Below, in pieces: positions 34,366 through 38,606 of a stretch of 64,000 nucleotides of DNA. Under the pieces are notes generated by a model. It saw only the letters and a list, made by a program, of their open reading frames with translations, searched no databases and was not told where the DNA came from. How positions within the stretch are numbered: position 1 is the stretch's first letter; every line of letters starts with the position of its first letter. This DNA comes from Botryotinia globosa (lineage: Eukaryota > Ascomycota > Leotiomycetes > Helotiales > Sclerotiniaceae): positions 1,426,001 through 1,490,000 of the forward strand of contig RCSZ01000004.1 in assembly GCA_014898425.1 (NCBI GenBank), given 5' to 3'. A program made the translations under genes and the position numbers.

Positions 34366-37300
34366 ATGGATCAATACTTCCCAAATCCGATGCCTCTTCA
34401 AAGGAGGTTAACCAAAATCTATACCGATACCAAGAACATCTATGATTTCATCAAAGAACCCGTCAGAAATGTCGAAGATCATGAACTTCAATCATTACAT
34501 CGAAAATTGCGTATTCAACAAAGTCGTTTGGTCTCGTGGGGATTGGAATGGTCGGATCCTTCACAGTCACCTGATATCGATGAATCAGTATCGAAAGCTG
34601 GACTATCTGAAATTGTCGGAAATGTCATGTCAACGATCAAGGAAATCTTGGCCGAAGCTGAACCATTATGGCAATCTTCCAAAAGGTTGACATCGGATGA
34701 GAGACCATCGGAAAAATCGGAAAAGAGTGCTTTAATTCAATGGGATAAAACGAGGTTTGAGGATTTGATTCGAGATTTAACCATGTCGATTGATACTTTA
34801 TGTGATCTCTCAAAAACACGTCAATCAGCAAGGACGGGTCTACAAACCTCGGAAGCATCAAGCTCCAAAGATAATTCGTCAGGATTCGAAGAAAGACAAT
34901 TTGAATCAACTAGAATGTCAGCACCACAGCAAATCGATCCAGCAACATTGATCTGGACGGGAAATCAAATCATTGCTACTCGTGGTACCTCGAGATCAAT
35001 ATCAAACAACACATTAAGACAGATAGTTTTGATGAGGAGATCGGTCAATTCTTCGGATCTGAGGCAAGCCATTGATCAACCTCCTGATCCGATTCCGGTC
35101 TTGGTCGAATATGCCCCGTATGATCCTATCTATTCGGTTACCGGAATCACTCCATCTATGACTCGATTCGAGAAACTTTTCGCTGGACTTTCACAGGCGT
35201 ATTATTCATCAGATCGATTACTTGTCGGATTACTTCGCCTCATTGGATATTATGAAGATGCTGAGCATTCGAGATTTTGTCTGTTGTTTGCGTTACCAAC
35301 AAATTTTGGACCAATGGACATTCAAAGCCCAACTTTACAGATGCCTATCATAAGCTCTTTGTCTGAGCTTTTAATAAGTCCTGCATTCGAACCCAACCTA
35401 GAGGTCAAGTACAGGTTGGCCTACAACATAGCCAATGCTGTGTTTGATCTACACTCCAAAGGCATTGTTCATGGCAATCTGCTTCCTTCCAATGTTCTCT
35501 TCATTGAACATCCTACCCCACCACGCGCTTTTGATTTAACACAGGTTAATATGCGGCAATCATATCTAGGCTCCTACGATTTATTCTCGGACACAGCTAC
35601 GGATTCCGGTCCAAGTTTTGATTCTGCCAGTATGTTGTATAAGCATCCACTGGATCCGAGGAGTACCAAATATACCAATCTCTCTCAAGAAAGCAAATCC
35701 TTAGATTTATATAGTCTTGCGATGATTCTTCTTGAAATTGGTCTATGGAGCTCTTTATCCGAACTTTTTCCAAGAGCATCGCAAGTCCCTTCAACCCCCA
35801 CCGAAGTTCTCAAACGTCTCGCATCTAGATGTGGAAATATCTATGTCAAGGCAGTGAAAGCGTGTTTGAGTGCTCCTGAGGGAGAACTTTCGCGAAAAGC
35901 AAGACCAGATGTTATGCATCAAAAAGTCTTTTGGCGTGTATCGAAAGCACTCAATACTTGTTGTTCACTTGACGATGTTTCGGATGATGATAGCGAAAGA
36001 AGTGATGAGCCATCACTCGTACCTACACCTGTAAAGATGGAAGCCCCATCTTCTTCTATCAAGGGATACCGTGAACGAAGGGATGCAAAGATTGATATTA
36101 CTGCTCCTCAAGAACCAGAAATCAATTGGGGTGAGAAACCGATACGTGAAAAATCGCCTCAAAAAGCTACTGTTGAGTGGCCAGAAAAGAAATCTTCTGG
36201 TGAGTTAATACCCATTCAAGGATCCTCTCATATAATTTCTCGTCTAACCACTCCGTCTCAGCCATTGAACCTATCAAGTCGAAACCCAAGCTCAAGACAT
36301 TCCCCGCTATTCGGATTAGTCAGGAACATATCAACTTGTGGCATACAAATATCATGCCACATGTCAACCACGTTCTTCGAAGTTTTTATAAAAAATATCC
36401 AGAATCAGTTGAAATTTCTCTCGAATCAGTTGGTGAATCATCTACGAAAACGAAACCTACCATTCTCGTCATATGTACAAGTGTCAATAAGGTTCGAAGT
36501 ATACTGAAGAAGAGTCTTGTTTATGACAAGGCTACATATGGCTTGAAAGTTTGTCGTGGAAAGGTTGTGAGAGCAAGGAATGGTGGTGTAAAGAGAAGTA
36601 TGGCACATGGTGATGAACTTGAAGCGAAGAATACTGAACATCAAGAACGTCCCAAGAATGGTGCTAGTATGGGGGCATACATCAATGATCATCATCTTCC
36701 ACCTGTTTCCTTTGGAGGTCTCGTTACAGTCGATGATAGACCTTATGGAATGTCTGTTCATCATATGTTGGATGATCCTTCTGACAATGACGACGAAGAA
36801 CAAGTTCAACCAACAAAGCCGATTCTCCGCTCTTCAGCTCGTCCCCAAGCCCTTCCTCAGTACCTTGAAATGCCAGATTTGACACACTCGGATACATCCT
36901 ACTACTCGAGCGGTGATGAAGAATACAATTACAGTTTTACAGATTATTCATCCTCTGGCTCATCATTCGATTCCGATTCATCCCCTTATGCATCAGAAGA
37001 TGAAGATGATTCCGATGGTGAATTTCCTACTCTCGAACCAGGAGACATCCCTCCCATTCCAGTCTCTTCGTCAAACGTTCACAACTTTCCAATCACCCAA
37101 CCAGCTATCGATGACATTGATCCAGATTTTTATCCTGATCCTGAAACCAGAGATGAGGATCATTTAGATTCTTGTTTACTGGGTAGTGTTTATACGAGTT
37201 CCGGAATTCGTCGATTAGCTCATGAAAATATAACCCATGAAATAGATTGGTGTCTTTTTGAATTTGAAGAACATCGTCTACCAGACCTTTCTGCCTCGAT

Positions 37301-38606
37301 ATCTCTAACAACACAGCCGATAGGCGTGGTACCTTTAACAGACCTTCCCGATCTACCAGTGAAATGTACCGCTAGAACAAGTGGTACGCAAACTGGACGA
37401 ATACTTCCTTCAATGTCCATTCTCAAAATTTATGGTCGGAAAACTCCATCGATGAGTTGGCAAGTCGCGGGTAAAATTGGGGTTCCAGGTGATAGTGGAG
37501 CATGGGTTTTAGAACGAGGAGATGATATCAGTACAGGACCAGGCAATAGTAGTGGAAGAATTGCTGGTAGTGTATTAGCATGGAGTCAACGCAGAAACGT
37601 CGGATACATTTGTCCCATGTGGATTAGTATTTTGGATATGGCAAATTCTTTGAATTGTGAAAATATTGGATTGCCAGGTGTTGAAATACCTATCTGGAGT
37701 AAGTTTTCTGCGAGAAAAGGAAGAGATACTGTTTCTCCTGTTCTTAAGAAAGCCTTTAGCTTTACGAGTGACAGGAATATTGGTGGGTGGGATAGTGAAG
37801 ACGAAACGCCGAGTTTGGGAGACAATAAACCTCAAAGTGGTAGTTATCCAGTGGTCATCGATGATGATCTTGCGGACGATGAAGATGAATTATCGGGGGT
37901 TTTAGGAAACGTAAAACATGTGAGATCGGATCAAGAGTATGAATATGCGGATCATGATGAGTATGATGATGATGATGATGAATCTTATGATGAGGAAGAA
38001 GAGAGGGAATATTGGAGTCGCTTCAAAGCCGCAAGTGTTAGTCCGGAACGGGTAAAGGGGATAGATGCAAATGATGAGCATGAATATCGACATGAGCTGG
38101 CGGGTGACGAACATCAACATCGACATGAGTTTGCGAGTAATGACCATCAATATCGAAATGAGTTTGCAAATGAATATGATCCGAATCCTCAAGGGATTGA
38201 ATATCAAGATTCGCATGAAAAAGAAGTTTTGATCTCAAGCGAAGAAGAACCAGAACTTTTAGCTACACTCGGTCAACCTTCTCGAAGAGGAAGAGGATTT
38301 GGAGTCAGAACTTTTAGTGGTGATAAAAGTTTGGAAATCGATATGATGGTGGGAGGACTCAAGGGTCTGAGTATTGATGAAAATACAATGCCGGGGAAAA
38401 ATACAGTCTTTAGTATGGATGGAAGTGCGATTGGAGATTTTACGGTTGGTGGAGCGGGAGAATTTGATGTGGGAGGAAGTGGACAGAGGAGGGAAACGAG
38501 GAGTAGGGGAAGTGGGAGTGCGCATTCGGGAACGGGGAGTTTGGGAAGTTTGAATGGGATGGTTCAGGGTGGTGGGAATAGGCAACGGGTTGGCGTTAGG
38601 AGTTAG
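34366..38606 (+). CDS. HeLo-like / pseudokinase / trypsin-fold protease-like multidomain protein
   Basis: Exon 1 is 34366-36199. The 62-nt intron at 36200-36261 has GTGAGT, a TCTAACC branch and a TCTCAG acceptor. Exon 2 is 36262-38606. The product has 1392 residues. Residues 1-170 are helical and follow the HeLo pattern (KLRIQQSRLVSWG, then FEDLIRDLTMSIDTLCDL), as in membrane-active prion-linked cell-death proteins. Residues about 190-540 read as a protein kinase fold: VHGNLLPSNVLF at about 368-379 replaces the HRD loop and lacks the catalytic Asp, no DFG is seen, and the helix-F motif SLDLYSLAMILLEIG is present near 445; hence a pseudokinase. After a conserved-looking linker, a trypsin-like core has candidate His (SVHHML, about 778), Asp (EIDWCLFEF, about 940) and Ser (GVPGDSGAW, about 1023). 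The C-tail is acidic, then has HEYRHE-type repeats and a Gly/Ser-rich end. The function is inferred from architecture only. Confidence 0.78.

Follow-up and report, generated by a model that had tools for sequence, protein, structure and literature searches.

What might a fungal protein do that carries a HeLo-type helical bundle, a kinase-like fold and a trypsin-like protease region in one chain? Such a protein is encoded in a 64,000-nt stretch of the Botryotinia globosa genome (contig RCSZ01000004.1, positions 1,426,001 to 1,490,000; hereafter the window, in whose coordinates positions are given) by one gene at 34366-38606 on the plus strand, with two exons and a GT..AG intron. Its spliced product comprises 1392 residues without an internal stop. 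Exon 1 (34366..36199), whose start region is common to near homologues, translates into residues 1-611, ends with the first base of codon 612 and encodes the HeLo domain and the pseudokinase, whereas exon 2 (36262..38606) supplies the remaining two bases of codon 612, followed by residues 613-1392 and the stop. The 62-nt intron (36200..36261) was placed by frame logic and near-homologue models; three of five such models are spliced identically and two have an insert at this point. An earlier note, made from the letters of this DNA, had proposed the three parts in this order, and the PF14479 profile, fold predictions and homologues bear this out. This confirms a single chain with a HeLo domain, a pseudokinase, a companion domain like that of the plant protease NARROW LEAF 1 (NAL1) and a chymotrypsin-fold protease, the folds being those of structure predictions.

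The HeLo-type bundle (residues 12-157, 34399..34836) scores above the curated PF14479 cut-off (34.6 versus 23.2 bits, best over residues 19-113). AlphaFold predicts helices at residues 12-29, 39-63, 69-77, 81-107 and 128-157, and profile and predicted bundle together agree with the suspected HeLo-like start. The fold-search lists for exon 1 were filled by the kinase part, with neither HeLo nor MLKL among the listed matches. The bundle lacks a hydrophobic N-terminal helix: the highest 17-residue Kyte-Doolittle mean before residue 44 (KD17) is -0.61. We examined the same value in two homologue sets. The first consists of the best 120 of 772 proteins at E<=0.001, aligned in 121 rows including the window protein; the third consists of the best 120 of 1213 proteins at E<=0.001, obtained with an Ascosphaera seed and scored on the protease half alone. 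KD17 had a median of -0.2 and a maximum of 0.91 in the first set (119 of 121 rows, window protein included) and of -0.02 and 0.5 in the third (115 of 120 homologues), so that none of the 233 sufficiently long homologues of both sets together has such a helix. 

The rest of the genome (45.7 Mb, 27 contigs) holds at least three HeLo genes with a DUF7580 kinase-like match, at C9:1463300-1466200, C11:1418000-1421500 and C7:1445900-1449300; this is a lower bound because the HeLo genome search missed the window locus itself. The C9 and C7 paralogues have a HET-s-like hydrophobic N-terminus, and KD17 reached 1.88 and 1.87 in the two of the three paralogues that were measured. The match of the C9 paralogue to HET-s structures (2wvo, E 1.1e-4) includes the hydrophobic start of the protein. 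The first half of the window protein is weakly similar to two HeLo-kinase-like genes of this genome.

The segment downstream of the bundle (residues about 184-540, 34915..35985) is predicted to adopt a protein kinase fold that has lost its catalytic residues, as the earlier note had read from HGN in place of HRD and a missing DFG. With the positions of VAIK and DFG assigned in the alignment by eye, E248 replaces the VAIK Lys in 117 of 118 letters and S403 the DFG Asp in 113 of 119; the HRD Asp is replaced by the Asn of HGN (369-371), which itself varies (111/119 letters in the first set, 108/118 in the third). DUF7580 (PF24476) stays below its cut-off in the window protein (23.8 versus 27 bits). 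For exon 1, NCBIfam matches were weak and of kinase type apart from one, likewise weak, to a phage capsid; PADLOC matched weakly at the kinase part only, and neither gave any match for exon 2.

The protease half begins after a poorly conserved linker (residues 541-630, median identity 0.28 in the first set). An alpha/beta domain with approximate boundaries (residues about 631-735, 36318..36632) precedes the chymotrypsin-fold domain (residues about 736-1087, 36633..37688), which contains a disordered, acidic and poorly conserved insert at about 791-870. The two-domain fold is predicted to be NAL1-like: the structure alignment covers 19-475 of the exon-2 model, and the alpha/beta domain aligns with NAL1 from residue 90 of the latter. 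A glycine-containing acidic tail (residues 1088-1392, 37689..38603) is unconserved, with a median identity of 0.05 across 120 homologues. Searches of solved structures by sequence were unproductive, the protease half yielding three chance matches and the full-length profile yielding kinases.

The putative catalytic residues follow the conserved order His-Asp-Ser, and the trypsin-like triad that had been noticed as His, Asp and GDSGAW motifs never varies among letters in three homologue sets, the second of which has 113 rows, some of them cut fragments. The pair H778-H779 (36759..36764), which holds the putative catalytic His, is invariant, each residue being found in 121/121 rows, 110/110 letters and 120/120 homologues of the first, second and third set. 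The same counts apply to D940 (37245..37247), the putative catalytic Asp of the motif HEIDWCL. S1023 (37494..37496), the putative catalytic Ser in GDSGAW, is present in 120/121 rows (one gap, P0008), 108/113 (five gaps, including cut fragments) and 87/120 (33 gaps). In 31 of these last 33 rows a late NFGG or SFGG is followed by the chain end or by loss of homology, as expected of gene calls halted at an intron; P0235 and P0341 have the gap without this pattern. A GDSG string at residue 193 of P0329 lies within the linker and is unrelated to the Ser motif. By conservation, then, the triad appears intact and the protease is probably active.

Judged from aligned sequences, the same domain order is deeply conserved in filamentous ascomycetes, and the conservation that the earlier note had suggested looking for across Leotiomycetes extends to other classes. 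The closest protein among the matches listed, from Botrytis fragariae, is 96% identical, and 114 of the best 120 first-set matches span residues 1-1060 to 98% or more. Among the matches listed, first-set hosts are Leotio- and Sordariomycetes and third-set hosts Eurotiomycetes, e.g., Aspergillus, Penicillium and Onygenales; a search with exon 2 adds Neofusicoccum and Haloplaca, with the second half only. The protease half is single copy in its own genome. A scan of prokaryote genomes with the protease-half profile found 13 stretches fitting a pattern and no confirmed relative, and P0032, named as a bacterial metagenome-assembled genome, is most likely fungal contamination.

We tentatively favor the reading that this protein is a regulatory serine protease of filamentous ascomycetes, in which the HeLo domain and the pseudokinase control or assemble a signaling protease. 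It is suggested by the conservation pattern, the intact triad and the lack of a helix of HET-S type. The output would be the C-terminal chymotrypsin-fold domain, which follows its NAL1-like companion; the HeLo bundle and pseudokinase would form the input, keeping the protease inactive or assembling it. A ligand, a partner or phosphorylation, sensed by this input, would release the protease to cut some substrate or its own linker. HeLo and kinase domains are known as intracellular domains, and the protein probably acts inside the cell, without HET-S-type pore formation. 

A more specific version, which we consider possible and hold with greater reserve, takes the MLKL-like HeLo-pseudokinase for a regulated prodomain in front of a NAL1-type signaling protease, so that a killing module would govern proteolysis, whose targets might be transcriptional corepressors, as they are in plants. 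NAL1 and ZmNAL1a degrade TOPLESS-type corepressors, as the available part of PMC12915138 reports, and the NAL1 fold can thus serve regulation; corepressors as fungal targets are a guess by analogy. The known role of HeLo, MLKL and related plant domains is that of executioner, and a conserved fusion of this kind would show the module in regulatory use.

Several observations weigh against the regulated-protease reading. Pfam found nothing at E<=1 for residues 613-1091 of the window protein, where the Peptidase S64 and Trypsin_2 profiles have no match. A scan of 43 relatives returned 11 Pfam families with one member each, among them Trypsin_2 (E 0.076) and S64 (E 0.46). The protease-half profile matched no solved structure at E<=10, NAL1 included. 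For the Trypsin_2 protein of the same genome, hhalign gave a probability of 0.1%, with a loose alignment that sets GDSG against GSSG. The protease is thus tied to no known family by sequence similarity. Furthermore, the HeLo domain leads the nine first-set segments in median identity (0.72) but comes second of seven in the third set (0.42), where the region surrounding the catalytic His leads (0.56), so that the conservation argument loses somewhat in weight. HeLo and DUF7580 matches also thin out across the third set: a precomputed domain listing shows PF14479 for 103/120 first-set and 15/120 third-set homologues (best 120 each), and in a sample of 25 third-set relatives HeLo was matched in 20 and DUF7580 in 17 at E<=0.01. 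Finally, the case for an N-terminal half that governs the protease is one of architecture only.

The earlier note had gone further and suggested a single-chain sensor and executor whose protease would free the helical domain. The domains, their order, the dead kinase and the conserved triad support this idea in part; a protease unleashing a HET-S-type HeLo killer is unsupported because the hydrophobic helix is absent, the HeLo domain is well conserved and there is one copy of the protease half, in contrast to HET-s/LopB proteins, whose sequence and copy number vary extremely according to the accessible part of a 2005 survey (PMC1325252). The more general form of this idea, a self-contained killer that cuts its own chain and permeabilizes the cell's own membranes with the HeLo bundle, with or without the pseudokinase, in the manner of MLKL or a cleaved gasdermin, is in our view unlikely. 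The HeLo match, the adjoining pseudokinase as in MLKL and the weakly conserved linker as a possible cut site speak for it, as do the cleavage of the fungal gasdermin HET-Q1 by the serine protease HET-Q2 (available text of PMC10197012) and the fusion of some HELL domains to kinase or pseudokinase domains (consulted sections of the review PMC12881547). However, according to the same sections a helix at the very N-terminus is important if HeLo-type domains are to target membranes and cause cell death, and no hydrophobic helix of this kind was found here; the HeLo of the C9 paralogue matches HET-s structures, which that of the window protein does not at E<=10 in the search of solved structures; and conservation this deep is untypical of allorecognition genes. 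Proteolysis that frees an MLKL-like bundle, with membrane binding that needs no hydrophobic helix, is possible.

It is similarly improbable that the protein is a self-processing scaffold, in which the protease would cut its own chain once, the halves would stay together or part and the fragments would carry the signal. Yeast Ssy5, of family S64, is the model for such self-processing. Peptidase_S64 was weakly matched by one relative in each scanned sample (E 0.46 among the 43, E 0.0079 among the 25 from the third set), and the poor conservation of the linker ahead of the protease and of the insert within it would suit this idea. S64 was not found elsewhere in the genome by a search that was silent in control genomes too and is hence uninformative. 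A remnant in which kinase and protease are both non-catalytic binding modules would agree with the lost kinase residues, and pseudo-enzymes do exist among protease-fold proteins; we regard it as very unlikely, since the His pair, the Asp and the Ser are unvarying among letters in three sets while the Asn of HGN varies. An artefactual merger of two adjacent genes, to which the intron between the halves and the many database proteins consisting of the second part alone, with a start close to where exon 2 has its first Met, could point, is rejected as highly improbable because full-length models in several classes share the domain order, exon 2 lacks a Met upstream of residue 643 and splicing leaves a continuous reading frame.

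Recognized neighbors in the window are genes for a malic enzyme, arginyl-tRNA synthetase, a velvet factor, an epimerase and a sugar transporter. The malic-enzyme gene (25639-27460, minus strand, several exons) lies about 7 kb upstream, and one gene model from Chlorociboria (P0020) joins malic-enzyme domains to a homologue of the fusion protein, which suggests that gene order may be kept. No NLR was recognized in the nine other window open reading frames of at least 200 residues, a search that intron-split genes could escape. The velvet-factor domain was found above its cut-off (30.7 versus 25 bits) in an open reading frame at 17610-18386. Elsewhere, we noted a 97-bp tRNA gene at 41435-41531, perhaps containing an intron, a very acidic 773-residue open frame at 48784-51105 for which Pfam gave nothing at E<=0.01, and a tandem repeat at 51397-51802 whose three plus frames read (HPI)n, (SIP)n and (PSH)n.

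The earlier note knew of no described system with this order, and our literature searches, whose coverage leaves out most subscription journals, found no paper on it either. The word trypsin is not present in a 2025 review (PMC12881547), neither trypsin nor pseudokinase in a 2022 survey of the effector domains that fungal NLRs carry (PMC9815663), and the fusion is not mentioned in the available portion of the 2005 HET-s/LopB survey (PMC1325252). This supports, without proving, an undescribed architecture. HeLo plus pseudokinase is already known; what is new is the protease half and the deep conservation. Like HET-S and other HeLo effectors of Podospora anserina, the fusion protein starts with a PF14479 domain; it differs from HET-S in lacking the hydrophobic N-terminal helix, in adding pseudokinase and protease and in being deeply conserved. 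It shares with MLKL and the fungal HeLo-DUF7580 proteins a helical bundle, here a predicted one, ahead of a kinase fold that has lost its catalytic residues, but adds the protease half, and the trigger of MLKL is phosphorylation by RIPK3. Peptidase family S64 (Ssy5) and Trypsin_2, weakly matched by one member each, are serine proteases of the chymotrypsin type, as the fusion protein is predicted to be. HET-Q2 is likewise a fungal serine protease linked to cell death, its target there being a gasdermin (PMC10197012, in part), and the proteases named for gasdermin-type sensors in the consulted sections of PMC12881547 are of the S8 or CHAT type. The protease half belongs to a broad family (1213 matches at E<=0.001 in one search) and goes unseen by Pfam in the window protein. 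Its predicted fold is like that of NAL1, for which we draw on PDB titles and the accessible parts of PMC12915138 and PMC10970654; the matched NAL1 chains have no HeLo or kinase half. At the level of fold, the fusion would connect fungi with the NAL1 protease of plants.
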